A stretch of 64,000 nucleotides of DNA, taken from NCBI RefSeq assembly GCF_001708305.1, contig NZ_CP016953.1:1259501-1323500 (forward strand). Reading direction: 5' to 3'. How positions within the stretch are numbered: position 1 is the first letter of the stretch; each line of letters starts with the position of its first letter. The notes beneath the pieces were generated by a model. The model was given only the letters and a program-made list of their open reading frames with translations. It was not told where the DNA came from and ran no database searches. Shown piece after piece: positions 35,095 to 47,565 of the stretch. Position numbers and translations under genes: made by a program. The DNA is from Streptococcus himalayensis (GTDB taxonomy: Bacteria; Bacillota; Bacilli; Lactobacillales; Streptococcaceae).

Positions 35095-35137
35095 ACGCTT
35101 CTACCCATCTGAAAGAGGGAAAGAAGCGTTTTTTTTA
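35095..35137 (+). terminator. Terminator after the DJ-1 gene
   Basis: ACGCTTC/GAAGCGT stem followed by eight T residues. Confidence 0.85.
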
Positions 35138-35204
35138 TGTGAAATCCGTTTAGAAATCATCAAATTTGAACTACAAGTCGTTTAAAGTTCCATCTATATT
35201 TCGG

Positions 35205-35585
35205 TTTATACTCGGAAAAAATTAAAATCTGACGTTGGTAACTAATCTTGCTGAACCATAGTTCTACTTACGGTTTTTAGGACACAAGCTACGCTAGTTT
35301 TATCTATCATCTTCTACAATTCTCAATTGCAAGGGGCGAGCTACGCTCGTTCTATTTCCACCCTTTCACAATTCCTAATTGTGGAAGCTAGTCAACTTGC
35401 GGGGGTAGGGCTAAACTAATCCAGTGGATTAGTTTAGCCCGAACCTAAAAATAAAGGAGTGAGGATAATCGATTTGTGCGAAATACTGATTTTTGCTCCA
35501 CTCCCCCTAGTCAGATGTTGATTTTAAAATAAACTCATCAAGTTTTCGAGCCATTTTATGGAAATAACTGGTGATAGGGGGATGT
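35205..35585. repeat. Mosaic of family 2 repeat and two stem-loop elements
   Basis: No gene is seen. 35205-35345 is a family 2 copy (AATCTGACGTTGG and CTTGCTGAACCATAGTTCTA, then GGTTTTTAGGACACAAGC). 35407-35439 is a near-perfect hairpin, GGGCTAAACTAATCC/GGATTAGTTTAGCCC with a three-base loop. 35452-35513 is an imperfect palindrome framed by GGAGTGAGGA and CCACTCCCCC. Counterparts of both hairpins occur, inverted or with altered stem, at 52515-52690. Confidence 0.65.
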
Positions 35586-35586
35586 T

Positions 35587-35770
35587 CCATGAAAATCAAA
35601 ACTAGCACTTTTGCGATTTTCTTAGATGGTTCGGACGTACCTGCCTTTTTTAGTACTCTTCATTTCAGTCACTAAAAAAGCATTCTATCTGCTTCATCTG
35701 ACTAACTTTATTTTATGGCAAAAAACAACAACGATAAATAAAAATGTTGTTTTTGGAATTTTATCAGGAT
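35587..35770 (+). repeat. MITE-like repeat (family 1), diverged copy
   Basis: Begins CCATGAAAATCAAAACTAGC and passes through TTCTTAGATGGTTCGGACGT, a CACTAAAAAAGCATTCT segment, and ATGTTGTTTTTGGAATTTTA at the end. It is closest to the copy at 10636-10812. It lies about 125 bases before the island's left attachment site. Confidence 0.65.
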
Positions 35771-35894
35771 TGGAACCATGGGAGGTAAGAAGCGGTGAAG
35801 GGTATCAATGAATAAGGGGGATTGTGGTACTTTGTAGGATTTGCCTGCACCATTGTTCGTGAATAGGGATGGTTTCACATGGGAAAGCGAAATT

Positions 35895-35916
35895 TATAGC
35901 AATTTTCTGAAGATTA
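35895..35916 (+). other. attL of the island
   Basis: TATAGCAATTTTCTGAA (17 bases) is repeated exactly at 46418-46434; with one mismatch the match extends to 22 bases. It is the left junction between chromosome and island. Confidence 0.8.
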
Positions 35917-36059
35917 GGTTTCGGTATTGAATAATCAATACTATACTTTCAAAATACCTTTAAACCAATGATTTGGAAGAATTTAATAGCTAATATACAT
36001 AAATAGAAAATAGTGGAGAGTGAACAAAAAGTCCACAAAAGTTACAGAGAAATGAGTTC

Positions 36060-36083
36060 AGCAGGCAAGAGAAAGGAGTATCT
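36060..36083 (-). repeat. Degenerate inverted copy of the 25-base island element
   Basis: Plus-strand AGCAGGCAAG (36060-36069) and GTATCT (36078-36083) match the reverse complement of the element at 44035-44059 and 45131-45155; the middle differs. It lies about 150 bases inside attL. Confidence 0.5.
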
Positions 36084-36187
36084 ATAGTGATGCTCTTTTC
36101 TTTTATCAAAAGGACGAGAAAAATCTTTAGATTGAAGAAAAACATTTTGTATCATTTTCTTAAATCTTTTATTTGCTTCTCCAATAG

Positions 36188-36230
36188 AAAAACTCTTAGA
36201 AGCAATACAAAATAAGCTTTTCTAAGAGTT
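36188..36230. terminator. Hairpin in the left arm of the island
   Basis: Perfect 12-pair stem AAACTCTTAGAA/TTCTAAGAGTTT with an AT-rich loop. Short T- or A-rich tracts flank it on both sides, so it could terminate on either strand, but the gene it would serve is unclear. Confidence 0.4.
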
Positions 36231-36475
36231 TAATCAATGTCTGAGCTTGTTCCTAATATTTAGATTTTTTATTATCTTAGAGGTCTTGTTCTAGATTTCT
36301 TTGGATAAGATGTTTATGATTGTTGATTGGTATAGGAGATATGTATCAAGAAGCGCGTGATTAAAAAAGGCGATTAAAAAATGAAATAGGCGTATGCGAA
36401 TGCAAAATAGTCTATTCATCGTTGAACTTTATTTATAAAAGCCTATTGATTTATCGCTATTTTTTTAGAGAGTAT

Positions 36476-36802
36476 CTATTTAGACTTTGCGACTTTTGCA
36501 ATATCTAGGAAAATCTTGATTAGCTCTTCAGGATTGTCACTTTGTTGAATTTCAAGGAGTAATTTAGTGATTTGGGTATCAGTGGTACTTGCAAAGGGTT
36601 GGAAAAAATCTCCTAGTGAAACTTCTAGCACATCTAGGATTGTGATTAATGTATTTAAAGCGACTGTACGTCGTCCATTTTCTACAAAATTTATGTATGG
36701 TAGGCTTAAATCGCATTGTTCAGCTAACTCTTGCTGGGTCATTCCTTTTTGTTTACGATAATACTTGATTTGAGTTCCGATACTAGTCATAATATCCGTC
36801 AT
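36476..36802 (-). CDS. XRE-family transcriptional regulator
   Basis: 108 residues: HTH_3 domain at about 9-62 (IKYYRKQKGMTQQELAEQCD, then SLPYINFVENGRRTVALNTL) and a short helical C-terminus. ATG 36802 is preceded by AGAAGGAGGAAGAT on the minus strand. It is divergent from the four-gene envelope module, with about 200 bases between them that include a TATAAT-like box (36879-36884), so it is the natural candidate regulator of that module. It is distinct from the island's second XRE protein near the integrase. Confidence 0.85.
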   Translation of the reverse strand: MTDIMTSIGTQIKYYRKQKGMTQQELAEQCDLSLPYINFVENGRRTVALNTLITILDVLEVSLGDFFQPFASTTDTQITKLLLEIQQSDNPEELIKIFLDIAKVAKSK

Positions 36803-37005
36803 ATCTTCCTCCTTCTGTGGCTATTATCATTTTATAATCTAGGGGAAGAAAATTATATATTCTGTGAGTTTTTGTTTGTATAATATATTTACTAAAAAGA
36901 TAAATTGAGGTAAAATTATAAATGAATAGTCTAAAAAAGTTAAACAATTAATTAGATTTGTATTCTAAAGTTATACCAATAGAAAAGTTGGTGATGGAGG
37001 CAGAA

Positions 37006-38361
37006 ATGATACTAGGATGGATTTGTTTGTTATTATTAATAGCTTTGGATATATATTATTATATATATGGTTTTGATTCTAATATATTAGATTTTTTAAG
37101 AAATAAATTTAACTCATTATCATTGCGTTCTTGGTCATATATAGCAGCTACTATCTCTCTTTTAATTGTTTTTACAGTTTTTATTAATATTCCGAAAGCC
37201 ACAGTACCTAATTCTTCGTCTTATTTTATTGGGAAGACTTTGGATGAAGTAAAGGAGGAATTTGAAAAAGAAGGTTTTTATAATATTGTTTCTGTTCCTG
37301 TAAGAGATTTACAATCAGGCAAAGATAAAGATAAAACTGTCAGAGGAGTTGAAATAGCTGGAGATATTTCTTTTAAGAAAGGGGAAAAATATTGGCAATC
37401 TACTGAAATTAAGATAAAACATCATGACTTTCCAGAAGATTATGCAAAATTATCCATTGATACAAACAAAAATTTGGAGGAAATAGCAGAGAATCTACGT
37501 TCAAATGGTTTTACTAGAGTATCTATTGAGACAGTTCCGTTAAAATTAAAAAATAATGGAGAAGAAGTTTCATTCCAAGAAATGAGAGTTAGTGGAAAAG
37601 TATACAAAGGAGTTCAATTGGAAAAAATAAAATCTGCTTATTTTCCGAAATCTTCTGATTTGGTGCTAATAAAATATGAATCAAGTATTCCTTTAATTCC
37701 GCTACCTAGTTTTTACAATGGTTTGACGGATGTAGAAAAGGTAAAAAAAGCTTTAGAATCATTGGATTTTTCAAATATTAAAGAAACTCCTATTCCTACT
37801 GAAGATGATGTTCTCCACAATAAGATGTATAGTATTGACGTAGAGGACGAAAATTTCCAAGAAATAAATGGTAATATCGAAGCTTCTTCTGATGCACAGA
37901 TTGTTCTTCATTTTTACCATTCAAAAAAGGCTGCTCAAAAAATAGAAGAAGAAAAGAGAAGAGAAGAAGAAAAAATACAAAAGAAAGCCGAAGAAAAACA
38001 AAAGGAGGAACAAGAAAGAAAAGATGAGGAAGAAAAAGCTTTAGATTATTTAGAGAAGATGGAAATTGCAGCAAATTTTGTAAACGCTACTTCAGGAACG
38101 GACATTGTTTCCAAGGTTACACTAAGTACCAGTAAACAAGCAGGAGCATTAATCATCAATTTAAATCCTAATATTTTATACGCTGGAGCATTAGAGATTA
38201 AAGCTGCCATTCAATCGCTTAATGAATCACTTGTTATTAGTTCTACGCAATATGGATATGAGAAACCTATTCTCCATTATTATTTGAATGGAAATGAGGT
38301 TGCAGTGAATCGCTACATTCTTAACCCACCAGAAGTTAAATTTAGAGGAATATTAAAATAG
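37006..38361 (+). CDS. Membrane protein with three PASTA-like units and a coiled coil
   Basis: Unrecognised 451-residue protein. Two hydrophobic helices at the N-terminus (about 2-21 and 44-61) are followed by three tandem units of about 75 residues (66-141, 147-225, 230-305), each with a helix of type ..G.TLDEVKEEFEKEGF.NI.. and ending in ..EIKIKHHDF-like strands, as in PASTA domains. Residues 306-350 are almost only Glu, Lys, Arg and Gln (coiled coil); a globular C-terminal domain of about 100 residues follows. ATG 37006 was chosen because GATGGAGG lies five bases before it; the frame opens earlier at TTG 36958 without a site. First gene of a four-gene operon. Confidence 0.8.
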   Translation: MILGWICLLLLIALDIYYYIYGFDSNILDFLRNKFNSLSLRSWSYIAATISLLIVFTVFINIPKATVPNSSSYFIGKTLDEVKEEFEKEGFYNIVSVPVRDLQSGKDKDKTVRGVEIAGDISFKKGEKYWQSTEIKIKHHDFPEDYAKLSIDTNKNLEEIAENLRSNGFTRVSIETVPLKLKNNGEEVSFQEMRVSGKVYKGVQLEKIKSAYFPKSSDLVLIKYESSIPLIPLPSFYNGLTDVEKVKKALESLDFSNIKETPIPTEDDVLHNKMYSIDVEDENFQEINGNIEASSDAQIVLHFYHSKKAAQKIEEEKRREEEKIQKKAEEKQKEEQERKDEEEKALDYLEKMEIAANFVNATSGTDIVSKVTLSTSKQAGALIINLNPNILYAGALEIKAAIQSLNESLVISSTQYGYEKPILHYYLNGNEVAVNRYILNPPEVKFRGILK

Positions 38362-38380
38362 TTATGTTAAGGAGAACATC

Positions 38381-39367
38381 ATGTTATTCATGTGTATATT
38401 ATTTGGTATTATCGTAGTTATTTATGGGATTATTTTTCATTCTCGGTATTTAATGCATAAGTCTGAACAATGGAAATTCTATACATTTCTGAGTTCGCTT
38501 GCTGTCTTGACCTTACTGTCTGTAGTTGGTTTACTTTCGACCTTTGCCCCTATAAATAAGAATATGGCTATGACGTCCAGTTCTTCTACAATATCAGAGG
38601 TTTCAAGCAGTTCTTATGTAAGTAGTTCAAGTCAGAGAATCAGTAGCTATAGTAGTTCTAGCAGGAGAGATTTCACTGTTGATTCATCTTCAAAGAATAT
38701 CGACAGTAACACTAAAGAAACAGGAAGTACCACTACTTCAGCCAGAGGTACGTGGACACCCACAGCTAACTATACAGTTAATGAGTATTTGAATAAACCA
38801 AATACGAATATTGTTCTACGCGCAAAGGTTATCAATAGTTTCCCTGATTACCTTATTCAAGGTGATAATTTACTGGAAGTTGAAACAGAGGTTATGGGTA
38901 TCTATGAGCCAGATGCGTATCGGGAATATTCCATCAATGGTGACAGACTGTTTATAAGAGTTCCGTCTTCACAAGATGTGCGTGTTGGTGAAAGAAAGGT
39001 TTTCACAGGAGAAATTACTAAATTAGAAGACTATGGTCGTATGGGTGTAGGAGCTATCAAGATAAGCAGTATGCGAAAACCAGCTGATGAAAATAGTCCT
39101 GTGTCTGCACCTAAAAAAGAAGAACCAGCATCACAATCAGCACCAACTTCACCTGCTCCAGAACCCGCTCCAGTTCAACCAAGCCCGCAACCACAGAGTC
39201 CAGCACCAATTCAACCAAGCCCGCAGCCATCTCCTAACCAAGGATTAAGACCTTTCAGAAATTGTACAGAAGCAAGACGAGCAGGCAGAGTAAATATTCC
39301 TGCTAGTGACCCACAGTATGGGCCGTGGTTAGATAGAGATAAGGATGGTTTTGGTTGTGATGAGTAA
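38381..39367 (+). CDS. Membrane-anchored Excalibur-domain protein with Ser-rich and Pro-rich linkers
   Basis: 328 residues. Two N-terminal membrane helices (about 4-20 and 35-55), a serine-rich stalk (about 65-120), a globular beta-rich, OB-like region (about 124-232), a Pro/Gln/Ala-rich linker with PVQPSPQPQSPAPIQPSPQP (about 233-287), and a C-terminal Excalibur domain (290-328) containing FRNCTEARRAG and the DRDKDGFGCD calcium loop. Excalibur is a small extracellular Ca-binding module often joined to secreted nucleases. Exposure outside the membrane is inferred. ATG follows AAGGAGAACATC, 19 bases after the first gene. Confidence 0.8.
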   Translation: MLFMCILFGIIVVIYGIIFHSRYLMHKSEQWKFYTFLSSLAVLTLLSVVGLLSTFAPINKNMAMTSSSSTISEVSSSSYVSSSSQRISSYSSSSRRDFTVDSSSKNIDSNTKETGSTTTSARGTWTPTANYTVNEYLNKPNTNIVLRAKVINSFPDYLIQGDNLLEVETEVMGIYEPDAYREYSINGDRLFIRVPSSQDVRVGERKVFTGEITKLEDYGRMGVGAIKISSMRKPADENSPVSAPKKEEPASQSAPTSPAPEPAPVQPSPQPQSPAPIQPSPQPSPNQGLRPFRNCTEARRAGRVNIPASDPQYGPWLDRDKDGFGCDE

Positions 39368-39803
39368 GTATAAGATAATGATTTTATGTATTAGCTTATC
39401 TTTTTTAATAGTATGCTGTGTTTTAGTTATTTTTCTAAAAAGTTCTTCACTAACCGATTATCAAAAAGCGGTACAAGCGTATCGTAGAATAAATATGGAG
39501 GAACTAGAAGCTAGGTTAGAAAAAAATGAATCAATTTATTTATACATAGGAAGAGAGAGTTGTCCCTATTGTCGAGAATTTGTGCCTAAACTTACACAGG
39601 CTGTCTCAGAAAAAAATAGTATTGTATACTATCTGGATAGTGAAGGAAATGATAAAGAGGCTATAAAACAATTTAGAAAGCTTCAGGGAATTAAGACAGT
39701 TCCTAGTTTGGGGTATTATAATCATCGTGGCTTGGTTAGAAAATTAGAAAAAGGTAGTCAAGCTAGTATAGAAGAAATAAAGGAATTTTTAAGGAGAAGG
39801 TAA
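39360..39803 (+). CDS. Membrane-anchored thioredoxin-like protein
   Basis: About 147 residues: one N-terminal membrane helix (about 6-26), then a thioredoxin fold with active site CPYC at residues 68-71 (in GRESCPYCREF) and the cis-proline before Ser in KTVPSLGYY (P115). It resembles bacteriocin-transport accessory (Bta) type proteins. It overlaps the preceding gene by eight bases (ATGAGTAA), suggesting coupled translation. A role in making or reducing disulfides outside the membrane is plausible, for instance the cysteines of the Excalibur protein (inference). ATG 39345 is an alternative start. Confidence 0.85.
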   Translation: MSKYKIMILCISLSFLIVCCVLVIFLKSSSLTDYQKAVQAYRRINMEELEARLEKNESIYLYIGRESCPYCREFVPKLTQAVSEKNSIVYYLDSEGNDKEAIKQFRKLQGIKTVPSLGYYNHRGLVRKLEKGSQASIEEIKEFLRRR

Positions 39804-39804
39804 A

Positions 39805-41070
39805 ATGGTTGTGCTATTTCAAATTTTACGATTTGTTGGTTTAATAGGAATAGTTATATTTATATGGTTATTGATTCGTTATAAAAAGCTAGGTAATCGA
39901 AAGTATATTAAGTTGGCAGGTATTGGTGAGGTAATTAGTTGTACATTATTTTTCTCATCGCTATTCTTTTATTCTAATTTTATTACAGAAATCCCGTACT
40001 CGTCTGAACAATTTGTAGGACGGCACAAAGATGAAGTAGTCAAGGAGTTAGAAAAGGCAGGATTTACAAACATCAAGTTAAAACCAGATAAATCTCTCAA
40101 AAAAGATTCTGATGAAAAGAGAACAGTTAGCAGCGTTGTTGTGGGTAATCAGGAAAAATATCAGGATAAAGCAAATTTTGATAAAAATATAAAAATCGTC
40201 ATTGCTTATCATGAATTTCTTGACTCGTATGCTAAGATAGGAAAAATCTCTGAAAATGTTTCTGTGAAAGAATTAGAAGGTAGATTAAAATCTTTAGGAT
40301 TTAATGAAATTACACTGATGCAAGAAATTGTAAAAACAGGAGACAACTCAAGAAATGGCTCAGTGAAAGAAGTTTCGATTAATGGACAGGAATATTATTC
40401 TGTTTACCACAAATCAAACTATTTTCCAAAAGATTCTAAAATTAACATCACTTACTATGAAAAAGATAAGGATGCAATTACTGTACCTGAACTCAAGATT
40501 TCTGGTCCCTATACAGAGTTAGAGAATAAGTTAAAGGAGCTAGGTTTCACGAATATCAAGTTAGAGCCAATTGAAATTATAACAGATATCAATGATTATG
40601 AAGTAAAATATGTGACGATTGAAGGACACAAATACGAATCAGAGACATTGTCTAATCATTTCTATACTAAGGACACAGAGATTGTGATTGGGTACAATGA
40701 TTATTCTTTTTATCAAGAAAAGAAACGAACTGCCGAGAAAGAAAAACTAGAACCATCTAGCTATGGTACAGTGAGCTATGATGCATGGAATCATGATGAA
40801 GTGGCAAAGGGAACAAAAGTCCAAGTCGCTGGAGAGATTGTACAGGTGTCGAGAGGTTTAGTTGATGTAACACTACGTATCCGTGTCGATGATTCATGGA
40901 ATATTATTTATGCAACAGTCCCTAGAGGTTATTTTGATAGTAATATTCTAGCAGAAGATGACAAGGTTACTGTTTATGGTACAGCGACAGGTTTAACGAC
41001 CTATGAAACTATTTTTGGTGCAGAAAAGACTCTTCCTTCGATGACTATTGTCTTTTATACGCGACACTAA
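39805..41070 (+). CDS. Membrane protein with three PASTA-like units and a C-terminal OB-like domain
   Basis: 421 residues and a paralogue of the first gene of this operon. Two N-terminal membrane helices (about 5-24 and 38-57), then three tandem PASTA-like units (63-137, 143-219, 227-299), each with a KELEKAGFTNIKL-like helix-strand core, a V..V.I.G..Y stretch, and a closing strand such as KIVIAYHEF or EIVIGYNDY. The C-terminal 100 residues (about 318-421, with GTKVQVAGEIVQV and DDKVTVYGTATG) look like an OB fold. There is no coiled coil, unlike the paralogue. ATG 39805 lies one base after the previous stop, behind AAGGAGAAGG. Function unknown. Confidence 0.8.
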   Translation: MVVLFQILRFVGLIGIVIFIWLLIRYKKLGNRKYIKLAGIGEVISCTLFFSSLFFYSNFITEIPYSSEQFVGRHKDEVVKELEKAGFTNIKLKPDKSLKKDSDEKRTVSSVVVGNQEKYQDKANFDKNIKIVIAYHEFLDSYAKIGKISENVSVKELEGRLKSLGFNEITLMQEIVKTGDNSRNGSVKEVSINGQEYYSVYHKSNYFPKDSKINITYYEKDKDAITVPELKISGPYTELENKLKELGFTNIKLEPIEIITDINDYEVKYVTIEGHKYESETLSNHFYTKDTEIVIGYNDYSFYQEKKRTAEKEKLEPSSYGTVSYDAWNHDEVAKGTKVQVAGEIVQVSRGLVDVTLRIRVDDSWNIIYATVPRGYFDSNILAEDDKVTVYGTATGLTTYETIFGAEKTLPSMTIVFYTRH

Positions 41071-42053: not shown

Positions 42054-43586
42054 TTATTTAGTGATTCTCTTGTATCCTCTATAGCTAGATGAGCTGTTCA
42101 GTTCAAAAGGATTATCTGAAAAGAATTTAGAATCCTCTTTGTTAAATTTAGAAAGCTTCTGAGGCCCACTACTTTGCCATTGATTGGAGAGTGTTTTCTT
42201 GAACTCCCTAAAAAATTGTTCTGGTGATAGCGGAGTTATTCCTTGTTTATCACAGAAGGAGTTATATGCCCAAAGTACAAACTGATTAGGTAAAAAATCA
42301 GATTCACATTTTGAGAATAAATCATCCGAAAAAATGTCTAAGTCGGTTATCTCTCCGTACATTTTTTTGACAAGTACGGAATCTTCTAAATCTGTAAATT
42401 TTTTAAACCCTAGATGAAGGGCTTTTTGAAGAACGTATTCCAGAAGCTTAGAATTGTTAATATGTTTATCCTTAATGTCTCTATCGTAATTATCTTTATT
42501 GAACTGAGCATCAAAGATTAATGAAATTCTTCGTCTACTAATTGCCGTAGAATCTCCTTGTATAGTAGGAAATTTATTGGCAGATTGGAGGATAACAGGT
42601 CGCATCCACATGGTGTAGGGTGTTTGGTTTTTAAATTCTACAGATACAGGGTCACCTGTGGTTAGAGAAAAGATAATAGAAGGGTCCTTGATATTAATAT
42701 TAATAGGGTTATCGTCGCCAATAATCAGTCGTTTCCCTATTAGCTTACTTGTAAAGAATCGATTTTCAAACTCATTGAGTTTTGCAGAAGCTATATTACT
42801 TCTACCTATTAGATTCGTGATTAACTGCTGGAAAGTTCCTTTTCCGGTTCCTCCTTCTCCAAGTAACCAAATAATTCGCTCATCAGAATATCCGATAATA
42901 CATGCTGTAAGGATTTCCCAAGCAAGCTTAATTCTATCTGTGTCTCCTGAAAATAGAGTATGTAACCAATTATTAAATTCAAAATTCTCCAATTTAGGAG
43001 AATCCAAATCCTCTGTAATATAGTCTATAGAATTTTTTGAGGTAAATACAATTGAATGACTAAAAGGATATGATGTTTTATTAACTGTATCAAATATACA
43101 ATTATTACACGCTACATATCTTGTCTCTTTATAAGATTGGACTGTTTCTATATTAGATAGAAAATATAGACTTTTTAGACATTCTTTTACTTCTCTGTTA
43201 GTGTACGAGGGTTCAGTATATCTTATTATCTTTTCAAGACGATTTTGATCGTGTCTGTATATACCCATTTTAGGGTCGTAGATAAATAACATTGAATCTT
43301 CTCTATCAGAGTTATCACTTATTTTACGTAGTATTAGAAAGCTCTCAAGGAATTCAGCCATTTCATGGTGAGGTATTTTTTTTCTTAATTCCTTTCTGAT
43401 AAAGGAATCACTTTCCCCAGAATACTCTGTGGTTAGCTTCTGTTTTCGCTTCTCTTTGAACTCTGTTATTTTCCTATCCAACTCACTATACTCTGATAGG
43501 TCGGATAGTTTGTTTTCAGGTATAGGGAGGAAAAGTAATTCTTGTTCTTCTCTGTGAACCTCAGTTGTCTTTATAACTTTCATCAT
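42054..43586 (-). CDS. P4-type phage/plasmid primase-helicase (SF3)
   Basis: 510 residues. The C-terminal half is a superfamily 3 helicase: Walker A GEGGTGKGTF, Walker B-like RLIIGDDNP, and motif C region MRPVILQSANKFP with the sensor Asn. The N-terminal part matches the D5/P4 N-terminal region seen ahead of such helicases. It should drive replication of the excised element. ATG 43586 follows AAAGGAAGAATT on the minus strand and overlaps the upstream HTH gene by 26 bases. Typical of satellites and integrative elements. Confidence 0.88.
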   Translation of the reverse strand: MMKVIKTTEVHREEQELLFLPIPENKLSDLSEYSELDRKITEFKEKRKQKLTTEYSGESDSFIRKELRKKIPHHEMAEFLESFLILRKISDNSDREDSMLFIYDPKMGIYRHDQNRLEKIIRYTEPSYTNREVKECLKSLYFLSNIETVQSYKETRYVACNNCIFDTVNKTSYPFSHSIVFTSKNSIDYITEDLDSPKLENFEFNNWLHTLFSGDTDRIKLAWEILTACIIGYSDERIIWLLGEGGTGKGTFQQLITNLIGRSNIASAKLNEFENRFFTSKLIGKRLIIGDDNPININIKDPSIIFSLTTGDPVSVEFKNQTPYTMWMRPVILQSANKFPTIQGDSTAISRRRISLIFDAQFNKDNYDRDIKDKHINNSKLLEYVLQKALHLGFKKFTDLEDSVLVKKMYGEITDLDIFSDDLFSKCESDFLPNQFVLWAYNSFCDKQGITPLSPEQFFREFKKTLSNQWQSSGPQKLSKFNKEDSKFFSDNPFELNSSSSYRGYKRITK

Positions 43587-43893
43587 AATTCTTCCTTTCG
43601 GTATTATTACTATATGTTAGGAACTTCATAACGTCTATTTTCCTATAATAGACTTTTCTAGTTCCTTCAATGGGTGGGCAATAACGATTAAGTCCTAGAC
43701 TCTCCCACTCATGCAGAGTTGCTAGGCTAATTCCTAATTCTTTGATTAGGTCTTTTTGTTGGATGAGACCAAATGAGTCTCGTTTAAAATTATCTGTTAG
43801 TAATGATAGGTAATTTTCTATCATTTTTTGAATCCCATCTAGTAGGCTTAATTCAGCTTGTGTAGATAGTAATCCTTGTGAATCAATCTTCAC
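43561..43893 (-). CDS. Small HTH protein, excisionase/MerR-like
   Basis: 110 residues starting at GTG 43893 behind GGGCGGAGGACAATTAT. The middle (about 42-92) carries a winged-HTH signature: LIQQKDLIKELGISLATLHE and, after it, the wing GTRKVYYRKIDVMKFL, as in excisionase and MerR-like domains. It is directly upstream of and overlaps the primase gene and is divergent from the repressor and integrase, the position of xis or an early regulator. Which of the two it is cannot be told. Confidence 0.75.
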   Translation of the reverse strand: MKIDSQGLLSTQAELSLLDGIQKMIENYLSLLTDNFKRDSFGLIQQKDLIKELGISLATLHEWESLGLNRYCPPIEGTRKVYYRKIDVMKFLTYSNNTERKNYDESYKDN

Positions 43894-44308: not shown

Positions 44309-45118
44309 ATGATTGGAAAAAAACTAAAAAATATAAGGAATGAACTATCTATTTCCTTGTCTCAGATTTCTAAAGAGATAGATGTTTCTAGGTCTTATAT
44401 TTCAGACGTAGAGAATGAAAAGAAGATTTCTTCTTATCCTGTCTTCATAAAGGTAATAGATTTCTTATCTAAGGTGTCTCCTATTAATGAGAAAAATAAA
44501 GATCTATTTCTCACAGAAAAACTATATAATGAGTGGAAAGAGAATTGTCAATTCAATTTATCTGATGATAGTAATTTTGAGGGCTACTATGAATTGTGGG
44601 CACCAGATGGTTTTATTATCACAATGTTGTCGGACACAGATAAAGAAGATGAACAGTTGATAGATGAGAAGAAAAGAGATTTCTTCTTTCAAAAAAGTTT
44701 TTTACCAGATGGAAGAGATGGAGACTATAAAAATACGAATGAGAGATATATTCCCATCTATCAAGCTATTGACGGTATGGATTATCAAGTTCAGCAATGG
44801 TGGAAAATGCACTACTTCCAAGATATGGTATTGTCTGTGTTAGATAGTAACGAGACACTCGGCGATAAAGAAGCTAGATTATTTGCGATTATTCAAAATG
44901 AATTAGCATCGTTGAATAGTGGGAGTAGACAGGGAGAATTTTTATCATTTACTCACTCAATTTCCCCAAACAAGGAGTATTCTCTTGATTTATCTAGTTT
45001 ATTAAGTTCTAATATGAAATTGACACTTCGAGGAAGTTACCTGTCGGATGAGGAACATACTTTTCTTAAAACAGTTGTTGAAGGAATGATTGCTAGGAGA
45101 AAGGAACTAGATAAATAA
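44309..45118 (+). CDS. XRE-family regulator, probable island repressor
   Basis: 269 residues. The N-terminal HTH_3 domain (about 4-60: LKNIRNELSISLSQISKEID, then VSRSYISDVENEKK) is followed by a roughly 200-residue C-terminal region with no motif I recognise; I do not see the Ser-Lys peptidase pair of LexA/CI-type repressors. ATG follows AGAGGTGTACT. Its place between the divergent early region and the integrase is that of a satellite master repressor, which in known elements is released by a helper-phage protein. Confidence 0.8.
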   Translation: MIGKKLKNIRNELSISLSQISKEIDVSRSYISDVENEKKISSYPVFIKVIDFLSKVSPINEKNKDLFLTEKLYNEWKENCQFNLSDDSNFEGYYELWAPDGFIITMLSDTDKEDEQLIDEKKRDFFFQKSFLPDGRDGDYKNTNERYIPIYQAIDGMDYQVQQWWKMHYFQDMVLSVLDSNETLGDKEARLFAIIQNELASLNSGSRQGEFLSFTHSISPNKEYSLDLSSLLSSNMKLTLRGSYLSDEEHTFLKTVVEGMIARRKELDK

Positions 45119-45178: not shown

Positions 45179-46324
45179 ATGAAAATAAACGAAATCAAAA
45201 AGAAAAATGGTACAACAGTCTTTCGTGCTAATATTTATCTAGGCGTGGATAGAAGTACAGGAAAAAAAGTAAAGACTAATGTTACGGCACGAACTAAAAC
45301 AGAATTGCGTAAAGCAATTAAACAAAGACAGGTTGAGTTTGAAAAGAATGGCTCAACTGTTCAAAAAAAGGTAAGTGTTAAAACTTTTAAAGAATTGACA
45401 AGTCTATGGCTTGATAGTTACAAATTAACAGTTAAGTTACAGACTTATAAAGGCACAGTGTCACAGCTTAATTGTCATGTACTACCAGTTATCGGAGATA
45501 GGAAAGTAGATAAGATAACTTCTAGTGATATTCAAGTTTTGATAAATGAGTTGTCAACCTATTTTGAAAACTACAAAGCTGTCCGTTCAGCAATTCGTAG
45601 GATTTTTCAATATGGGATATTGCTAGGTATTATTACTTTGAATCCAGCTAGAGATATTATCTTGCCACGCTCTAAACCCAAAGACACTTCCAAAGTAAAA
45701 TTCATTGAGCCAGAGCATTTAAAGGATTTTTTGGATAATATAGAGAAAATCCAGTATAGGCGGTATGGATTGTATTTTGAGTATGTTCTCTATAATTTGT
45801 TGCTTTCTACGGGATTACGAATAAGTGAAGCATGTGCTCTGGAATGGTCAGATATTGACCTAGAAGAAGGCACTATATCAGTCAGTAAGACTTTTAGTAG
45901 GGCTACACAGTTGATTGATACAACCAAAACTAATGCAGGAAATAGAACGATAAGCATTGATGGAAAAACAAAAAATACGCTACGATTGTATCAGGTTAGA
46001 CAAAGACAGGTGTTTTTTGAGCATGGTGCGCGTGCATCATCGGTTGTCTTTGCTACTCCAACAAGAAAGTACTTTGACACAGCGATTAGGCAGCATTCCT
46101 TAGATACTCGTTGTAAAGAGGCAGGTGTCCCGCGTTTCACCTTTCATGCTTTTCGCCATACTCACGCTAGCTTATTATTGAATGCTGGTATCAGCTACAA
46201 AGAGCTACAGTATCGTCTAGGACATGCTAACATCTCCATGACATTAGATGTCTATTCTCACCTATCCAAAGATAAAGAAAAAGAAGCTGTCTCATACTTC
46301 GAAAAAGCAATCAGCTCTCTTTAG
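45179..46324 (+). CDS. int: Tyrosine-type site-specific integrase
   Basis: 381 residues. An N-terminal AP2-like arm-binding domain (about 1-50), a core-binding domain (about 60-165), and a catalytic domain with Arg214 (TGLRISEA), the H-x-x-R box His323/Arg326 (FHAFRHTH), His349 (LGHANIS) and nucleophile Tyr359 (DVYSHL). All active-site residues are present, so it is probably functional. ATG 45179 follows AAGGAAGGAAGC. It is adjacent to attR, as usual. It belongs to the Tn916/phage Int family of Gram-positive elements. Confidence 0.93.
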   Translation: MKINEIKKKNGTTVFRANIYLGVDRSTGKKVKTNVTARTKTELRKAIKQRQVEFEKNGSTVQKKVSVKTFKELTSLWLDSYKLTVKLQTYKGTVSQLNCHVLPVIGDRKVDKITSSDIQVLINELSTYFENYKAVRSAIRRIFQYGILLGIITLNPARDIILPRSKPKDTSKVKFIEPEHLKDFLDNIEKIQYRRYGLYFEYVLYNLLLSTGLRISEACALEWSDIDLEEGTISVSKTFSRATQLIDTTKTNAGNRTISIDGKTKNTLRLYQVRQRQVFFEHGARASSVVFATPTRKYFDTAIRQHSLDTRCKEAGVPRFTFHAFRHTHASLLLNAGISYKELQYRLGHANISMTLDVYSHLSKDKEKEAVSYFEKAISSL

Positions 46325-46417
46325 TCCACAAAAAGGTGAACAAATTGGTAGAAGGTTAGATATAGACTCATCAAAAAGCTTATTTTATCAGTCTTTAGAA
46401 AGGACGATGATAAAAAC

Positions 46418-46439
46418 TATAGCAATTTTCTGAAAATTA
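46418..46439 (+). other. attR of the island, within the serC promoter region
   Basis: Right copy of the attachment repeat (see 35895-35916). A -10-like TATGAT (46443-46448) follows four bases later, and the serC ribosome-binding site starts at 46461. Confidence 0.8.
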
Positions 46440-46473
46440 TGCTATGATAGAAAAAATAGCAAGGAGGTCGGAT

Positions 46474-47565
46474 ATGACGATTTACAATTTTTCTGCAGGT
46501 CCTGCAGTATTGCCTAAAGAAGTGTTGGAAAAAGCCCAAGCTGAATTTTTGGACTATGCAACGAGTGGCATGAGTGTGATGGAGCTATCCCACCGATCCA
46601 AAGAGTTTGATGAGATTATCAAAGGGGCAGAGAGCTTGTTGAGAGAGCTGATGCAGATTCCAGATACCTATCGAGTGTTGTTTTTACAAGGAGGAGCCTC
46701 AACTCAGTTTTCGATGATTCCTTTAAATCTCGCTCAAGGCCGAAAAGCCTATTATGTGGTAGCTGGTTCTTGGGGGAAAAAAGCCTATACAGAGGCTGTC
46801 AAACTCTCAAAAACCATTCCTTTTGAGCCAATTTGCCTGGCTAGCTCAGAGCCGCAAAATTATGTGGAAATTCCATCTTTTGACGCTGGAGCCATTGATC
46901 CACAGGCAGCCTATGTCCATGTGACGACCAACAATACTATTGAAGGAACAGCCTTGTATCAAGTGCCAGATACCAATGGTGTCCCAGTGATTGCGGATAT
47001 GTCATCGAATATCCTAGCAGCAGACTATCAGGTTGAAGATTTTGGGATGATTTATGCAGGGGCACAGAAAAATATCGGTCCAGCTGGCGTGACGGTGGTC
47101 ATCATCCGAGAGGACTTGTTAAATCAAGAGCCAGTGCTTTCAAGTATGCTAGATTACCGCATTCAGGCGGAGAATAACTCTCTTTATAATACCCCACCAA
47201 CCTTTGGAATTTATATGGCTAAACTGGTCTTTGAATGGGTCAAGGACTTGGGAGGCGTGGCAGAAATGGAAAAACGCAACCGTGAAAAATCAGATCTCTT
47301 GTATGATTATATCGAGCAGTCGAGCTTTTACACGAGTCCAGTCCTCCATAAGAAGCAGCGCTCCGTGGCCAACATTCCTTTTGTATCGCCAAGTGCTGAG
47401 CTAGATGTAAAATTCAACAAGGAAGCCGATGCGGCAGGTTTTAAAAATATTAAAGGTCACCGTTCGGTCGGCGGTATGCGAGCGAGTCTGTACAACGCCT
47501 TTCCCCGCCAAGGAGTGGTTGATTTGATTGCCTTTATGAAGAAATTTGAAGAGGAGAATGCCTAA
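46474..47565 (+). CDS. serC: Phosphoserine aminotransferase
   Basis: Converts 3-phosphohydroxypyruvate and glutamate to phosphoserine, the second step of serine synthesis. 363 residues, class V aminotransferase fold: [17 protein letters not shown] at the N-terminus and the pyridoxal-phosphate Lys in [12 protein letters not shown] (near residue 198). ATG 46474 sits behind AAGGAGGTCGGAT; earlier in-frame codons lie in the promoter. It overlaps the GNAT gene by one base. First gene of a serC-GNAT-serA operon. Confidence 0.95.

Follow-up and report, generated by a model that had tools for sequence, protein, structure and literature searches.

Phage satellites are known for interfering with packaging and for carrying intracellular defence genes. 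In the Streptococcus thermophilus phage TP-J34, the lysogeny module contains ltp, which encodes an exclusion lipoprotein that blocks DNA injection (PMC3952083, partial text). The pneumococcal surface protein CbpL has an Excalibur domain that folds on calcium and whose two cysteines make a disulfide, and additionally an Ltp domain (PMC5137146, partial text). Here we describe an operon of four genes, g1 to g4, in Streptococcus himalayensis (NZ_CP016953.1, positions 1,259,501 to 1,323,500, hereafter the window, 64,000 nucleotides of a single-contig genome of 2.28 Mb). Together with a divergent XRE-family regulator gene, the operon lies within a 10.5-kb element that has a 17-nt repeat at both ends. 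There is strong support that it belongs to a genuine cargo module of satellites that recurs elsewhere. As a whole, we tentatively read it as cargo that alters the host envelope, most likely by superinfection exclusion, making entry harder for the DNA of rival phages. The operon and its surroundings are composed as follows:

36476..36802, minus strand: XRE-family regulator of 108 amino acids, divergent from the operon (HTH_3, E 3e-15)
36803..37005, no strand: intergenic region between the XRE gene and g1, presumed common control region (sequence)
37006..38361, plus strand: g1, two membrane helices, three PASTA-fold units, a charged helix and a small C-terminal domain, g1C (hydropathy, HHalign, predicted structure)
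38381..39367, plus strand: g2, two membrane helices, a Ser-rich low-confidence linker, an OB-fold (residues ~127-235), a Pro-rich linker and an Excalibur tail (292-326) (Pfam, hydropathy, predicted structure)
39360..39803, plus strand: g3, membrane-anchored CPYC thioredoxin, Bta-like (PDB 1zma, E 5.9e-12; PHROG 29958, E 2e-11)
39805..41070, plus strand: g4, two membrane helices, three PASTA-like units and a C-terminal g4C domain (g1 paralogue; PHROG 25932, E 2.9e-19)

A first-pass annotation of this DNA had described four tightly packed genes with a divergent XRE gene, in a span that begins at 36803 and hence takes in the intergenic region. The coordinates confirm this layout, with gaps of 19, -8 and 1 between g1-g2, g2-g3 and g3-g4. 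These values are exact when g3 starts at 39360, its likely ATG; the first ATG of the frame is at 39345. The open frame of g1 spans 36958-38361 and its likely start, the ATG at 37006, is preceded by GGAGG. N-terminal membrane helices had been claimed for all four proteins, and hydropathy indeed predicts two each in g1, g2 and g4 and one in g3.

Recurrence of the module was assessed in 19 rows outside the window that encode an Excalibur-OB protein. Loci L001-L063 and L073-L096, being repeat genomes or short, were left out; L110 is a repeat of L065 and L135 of L098, and a single draft genome supplied L102, L103, L105 and L106. A divergent gene for a homologous XRE protein is present in 19/19 rows and the thioredoxin gene comes next in 17/19, the remaining two contigs stopping there; XRE gene, Excalibur-OB gene and thioredoxin gene thus keep a constant order in 17/17 rows that are long enough. 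A g4C domain is encoded within 6 kb in 16 rows and g1C in 12, at positions that differ between loci. As judged by gene-neighbourhood co-occurrence, all four domain classes come together in 12 of the 19 rows (10/17 without the two repeat records). The window's XRE protein is 40.6-41.5% identical to those of the compared S. mitis-group loci and 43.6% identical to the XRE protein encoded next to a g1 relative of genome G052, and a comparison by eye of the XRE intergenic regions of the loci gave no clear common operator. In 10/19 rows (L064-L067, L100, L101, L104, L105, L107 and L110) the module is followed by MerR-like, repressor and integrase genes of the same families as in the window, and a primase matching that of the window is seen in six. 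Because these families follow, satellites account for eight of the rows with all four classes, or for nine when the repeat L110 is counted. Where carriers are named, they are S. mitis, S. pseudopneumoniae and their relatives (14 loci) or the satellites Javan305 and Javan323; one g4C protein of the module set occurs on 250 contigs, with an S. pneumoniae record among the names. Searches with g3 and g4 in viral contigs gave no match. The module idea of the first-pass annotation therefore stands for the XRE gene, the Excalibur-OB protein, the thioredoxin and the g1C/g4C end domains, which recur together, and falls for the triple PASTA arrays, which are not part of it in the S. mitis-group rows.

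The Excalibur protein and the CPYC membrane thioredoxin named in that annotation are both borne out. The tail of g2 scores 40.2 bits against PF05901 (cut-off 22) and has the two conserved cysteines, C295 and C326. The proposed display of a nuclease finds little support, since the Pfam scan contains no nuclease domain, the nuclease-named PHROG matches only the Excalibur end of g2, and the middle domain is an OB-fold. By sequence, g3 is related to pneumococcal Bta, with Pfam thioredoxin models under their cut-offs. The only cysteines of g1-g4 outside predicted membrane helices are C295/C326 of the Excalibur tail and C73/C76 of the CPYC motif in g3 (counted from the ATG at 39345).

The pairing of these two protein kinds extends beyond the module. 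Within the genus, 147 genomes drawn from a larger group and including related genomes that are not independent, Excalibur is present in 65. Among the thioredoxin matches listed, which reach down to ~E 3e-12 so that weaker adjacent thioredoxins may be missed, combined coordinates place such a thioredoxin directly behind the Excalibur gene in 18 of these 65. In six genomes the pair contains the module's Excalibur-OB gene (G000, G075, G088, G091, G092 and G107), and in 12 it contains other Excalibur proteins. The surroundings of ten of the 12 were read by eye, G090 and G137 being left out. There the pair adjoins genes that we take to be typA and/or asnA (G006, G013, G016, G063, G111 and G123), a presumed pepF (G030 and G038), or what looks like a pepP-like gene or uvrA (G033 and G051). 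It is thus found in at least three chromosomal contexts besides the module, and outside the tail the Excalibur proteins of separate contexts look unlike by eye. The recurrent pairing, the sole non-membrane cysteines of the operon and the disulfide reported for CbpL together give moderate support to g3 being probably the oxidoreductase of the g2 Excalibur domain, oxidizing or repairing its disulfide. The earlier idea of a redox helper is supported and becomes more specific, as Excalibur genes with such a thioredoxin directly behind them recur. Among the papers listed by the literature searches, no title or abstract opening joined Excalibur to thioredoxin, to satellites or to this layout. The terminal thioredoxin of Javan598 (L068:11368-11817) was considered as satellite cargo and set aside as doubtful. 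It closes the record, and the nearest chromosomal thioredoxins that were read adjoin, or lie within 1.6 kb of, a gene that we take to be rpsD, so that it probably belongs to the flanking chromosome.

g1 and g4 are the two triple PASTA-like paralogues of the first-pass annotation, and they do align over all three units (HHalign probability 100, 29% identity), their C-terminal domains being different. Both remain under the Pfam cut-off of 23.2 for PASTA (PF03793), with 19.9 bits for g1 and 16.8 bits for g4. The predicted structure of g1 has seven Foldseek matches at E <=0.001, every one a PASTA array, and by this predicted fold in tandem array the units of g1 are PASTA. The PASTA profile gave no match to PDB sequences. 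A protein search with g1 returned only g1 itself from the 7991 best word-sharing candidates, and relatives found by another search were missed by it. No PASTA array was matched in any of the 19 rows, yet such arrays occur elsewhere. Five genomes (G022, G109, G116, G119 and G125) have one fused in a single frame to an Excalibur tail. G052 and the window each have one joined to g1C, in G052 beside an XRE gene of the same family, and the window has another joined to g4C. Hence the window operon represents a variant of the module to which PASTA arrays have been added.

Several observations accompany these proteins. In G074 (L123:5644-6894) a PASTA array and an Excalibur remnant are split over separate frames, where the five genomes above have a single fused gene. 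The window's own genome encodes, among ordinary chromosomal genes, a predicted lipoprotein with one PASTA-like unit matching g1/g4 (L126:7158-8036). It also encodes a second g4C protein of 352 amino acids with a small N-terminal domain ahead of the membrane helix (G000:C1 ~901.1-902.1 kb, L125:7078-8136); the gene lies near genes that by eye look like transposases, and a g4C piece with two stops follows ~3 kb further. By eye, a small N-terminal domain of similar appearance plus one helix replaces the two-helix anchor in several module proteins (L064:5178-7001 and P0122-P0124); g4C, a DUF6287 protein and Excalibur-OB proteins all bear this head, which is presumably cytoplasmic. DUF6287 (PF19804) is found in the fifth gene of an S. 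mitis-group module (L064:5922-7001). Endings that look similar by eye (L111:7143-8411; L113:2186-3511) occur in lipoproteins near a chromosomal Excalibur-thioredoxin pair. G088, a draft assembly, has four equal-scoring Excalibur-OB copies on contigs C6, C7, C8 and C92, three at contig starts and one ~500 bases from an end, which are either repeated elements or an assembly effect.

The element that carries the operon is marked by these further features:

35895..35911, plus strand: left att repeat TATAGCAATTTTCTGAA (exact pair with 46418-46434)
42054..43586, minus strand: P4-family primase of the satellite (TIGR01613, 182.1 bits, cut-off 108.7)
43561..43893, minus strand: MerR/excisionase-like protein (PHROG 10458, E 9.6e-16; MerR_1 20.7 bits, just under the cut-off of 21.6)
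44309..45118, plus strand: cI-like XRE repressor (HTH_3 33.2 bits, cut-off 23; PHROG repressor families)
45179..46324, plus strand: tyrosine integrase (63.8% identity to the integrase of satellite Javan398)
46418..46434, plus strand: right att repeat TATAGCAATTTTCTGAA, directly upstream of a class-V aminotransferase gene at 46444

Among the scanned open reading frames between the repeats, none was named as a virion structural gene, as terS or as a gene of packaging interference. With its integrase, repressor, MerR-like protein, primase, pair of att repeats and low G+C, and no recognized structural gene, the element has the build of a phage satellite resembling phage-inducible chromosomal islands (PICI-like). 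An island had been postulated in the first-pass annotation, and the 17-nt att-like repeats, the satellite genes and the low G+C now bound and mark it. With up to two mismatches, the two repeat copies are the only matches to TATAGCAATTTTCTGAA in the window (0.02 expected), and G+C is 0.329 within the element vs 0.430 and 0.421 in the flanks. The aminotransferase gene, which we take to be serC, was compared with 16 relatives at this locus, where homology begins at window positions 46409-46428 in seven, at 46473-46475 in eight and at 46381 in one; the left flank gave a single short match only, and neither comparison demonstrated an empty site. Ahead of the XRE gene, ~1.4 kb containing the left repeat (35100-36475) hold a sole open reading frame of at least 60 amino acids, which has 61.

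Superinfection exclusion is our best, unproven account of what the operon does, and it is suggested by position and build: relatives of g4C and g1C occupy the region between regulator and integrase of temperate phages, where exclusion genes are known. In 5/5 temperate phages opened (Javan271, Javan68, Javan414, Javan207 and Javan411) a g4C gene with membrane helices stands directly before the integrase, with a regulator on its far side. Javan414 and Javan207 have one extra gene between regulator and g4C, the regulator of Javan411 is annotated as hypothetical only, and Javan400, which equals Javan411 in length and match, was left out of the count. ORF355 of Lactococcus phage ul36, which carries g1C, likewise sits between repressor and integrase. 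The searches that gave these relatives covered phage records only. A two-helix anchor whose loop has a net charge of +2 or more is present in 12 of 18 hand-picked proteins, g2 and g4 among them. By the positive-inside rule, a positive inter-helix loop puts the C-terminal domains outside, as is likely here. All four proteins would then occupy the space that separates membrane from wall. In the fashion of PASTA kinases, g1 and g4 would be held close to the peptidoglycan by their PASTA arrays, and g2 would present its OB-fold and a calcium-folded Excalibur tail whose single disulfide g3 may make or repair after export. Jointly they would change the envelope of the host cell and, in the manner of Ltp-type proteins, make it harder for the DNA of competing phages to enter. 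It is improbable that the operon is a composite barrier to DNA entry, in which wall-docked PASTA towers and SSB/RPA-like OB-fold heads on the outside of the membrane would trap incoming DNA or stand in its way, while a calcium-folded Excalibur latch would be kept active by the operon's own thioredoxin; the DNA so blocked would come from phage injection, or would be single strands of transformation able to delete the satellite.

A number of points weigh against exclusion and the model built on it. Within the satellite, the window operon takes the end remote from the repressor-integrase slot that its phage relatives fill, and it stands behind an XRE gene of its own. In the satellites Javan305, Javan398 and Javan619, g4C is distant from the integrase, and among four further g4C loci an integrase adjoins it in two but not in the other two. 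The inter-helix loop of g1 has no net charge, the g4C proteins of Javan414 and Javan207 have a single helix, and the proteins of ul36, G070 and G038 that were compared depart from the two-helix anchor with three. The two predicted models (mean predicted local distance difference test scores 58.6 and 61.7) are of modest confidence. The g2 terminus, DRDKDGFGCDE, deviates from the strict calcium motif DxDxDGxxCE in having Asp instead of Glu after the second Cys; Asp is found at this position in 17/17 alignment rows. Pairing with a thioredoxin is not obligatory: among the matches listed, 47/65 Excalibur-bearing genomes have no adjacent thioredoxin, G106 and G120 carry an unpaired Excalibur gene at the same typA site as paired genomes, and in L098/L135 (one genome) the thioredoxin consists of partial frames only. 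The missing PASTA arrays of the 19 rows count here as well. PADLOC-DB 2.0.0 gave no defence-model match for g1, g2 or g4 at E <=0.01, and g3 matched only JetD (E 0.007). We know of no phage phenotype for any of these proteins. A literature search on the PASTA domain with prophage, Streptococcus and superinfection found nothing, and a paper that describes S. thermophilus satellites (PMC13376191) mentions neither thioredoxin nor superinfection in its main text, nor does it use the words transmembrane or membrane protein there.

Moreover, adhesion or wall modulation would suit the same anatomy. The operon could be host-interaction cargo, its anchored Excalibur, PASTA and OB domains acting as adhesins or as matrix or biofilm factors to the advantage of the host cell in its niche, with no direct antiphage role, and g3 maturing the Excalibur protein. 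Excalibur-thioredoxin pairs are also ordinary chromosomal genes, next to typA, pepF and uvrA as named by eye, where phage exclusion is less natural; however, g1C and g4C have relatives in phage lysogeny regions, among the phage records searched, and neither the sequences nor the Pfam scan revealed an LPXTG-type or choline-binding anchor in the operon proteins, whose membrane tether may keep them within the wall. We consider this reading possible but rather unlikely. Quite unlikely, too, is a loose collection of surface genes of mixed origin at the cargo end, with joint function limited to the Excalibur-thioredoxin pair. Domain shuffling is indeed wide, as the PASTA fusions described above illustrate, g1C or g4C is found in phages without the rest, the place of both varies among loci, and the G+C of g2 is 0.398 vs 0.301-0.330 for g1, g3 and g4. 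The constant order of the three core genes and the overlapping or abutting of adjacent genes speak against a chance assembly. It is improbable that the PASTA arrays serve in sensing of the wall or of envelope stress, competing with or feeding the host PASTA kinase and division machinery and so shifting wall growth or lysis timing for the satellite. A kinase or other output domain is absent, the PASTA sequence signature is weak and the 19 other Excalibur-OB rows do without arrays. A bacteriocin or conjugation set, which the first-pass annotation had raised, was rejected: g3 scores 51.8 bits against TIGR01295 (PedC/BrcD), far under the equivalog cut-off of 120, and the scans of island open reading frames named no transporter, bacteriocin or conjugation gene as a partner.

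With an extracytoplasmic module that is conserved and brings a folding enzyme of its own, the cargo of satellites would reach as far as the cell envelope. As a pair, Excalibur and thioredoxin provide a streptococcal thiol-disulfide enzyme with a candidate substrate that is directly testable, and would inform the role of extracytoplasmic disulfide enzymes in Gram-positive bacteria with few exported cysteines.

Among known systems, the Ltp/Sie exclusion proteins of lactic-acid-bacterial phages are tethered outside the membrane, as we infer for g1-g4, and the lysogeny region that holds ltp also holds the g1C/g4C relatives of temperate phages. Ltp differs in its lipoprotein anchor and its PF07553 repeats, whereas the window proteins have membrane helices and no PF07553 match at E <=1; blocking of phage DNA injection is described for Ltp and suggested for the window operon by position and analogy. 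CbpL shares with g2 an Excalibur domain with two disulfide cysteines on a surface protein (PMC5137146, partial text), and its Excalibur structure, 5j8t, is the best solved-structure match to the g2 tail (E 0.033). It is anchored to the wall by choline binding and carries Excalibur N-terminally, and the CbpL-like gene of G007 has no thioredoxin among two neighbours per side. The PASTA kinases PrkC, StkP and PknB have a membrane-anchored extracytoplasmic PASTA array, as predicted for g1 and g4, which in contrast lack a kinase domain, stay under the Pfam cut-off in sequence and have added C-terminal domains. The bacteriocin transport accessory protein Bta (1zma) and PedC/BrcD have a thioredoxin fold with CPYC, like g3; g3 has in addition a membrane helix, and its neighbour is an Excalibur gene instead of a bacteriocin set. 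Also close are the PICI-like satellites Javan305, Javan323 and Javan398, all deposited records. They differ in that no PASTA arrays were found and that homologous proteins are ~40-47% identical. Their integrase and MerR-like protein match those of the window, and in Javan305 also the cI-like repressor and primase. Of the four module classes Javan398 has g4C only, while Javan305 and Javan323 both carry the XRE gene, the Excalibur-OB protein, the thioredoxin and g4C, and Javan305 has g1C as well.

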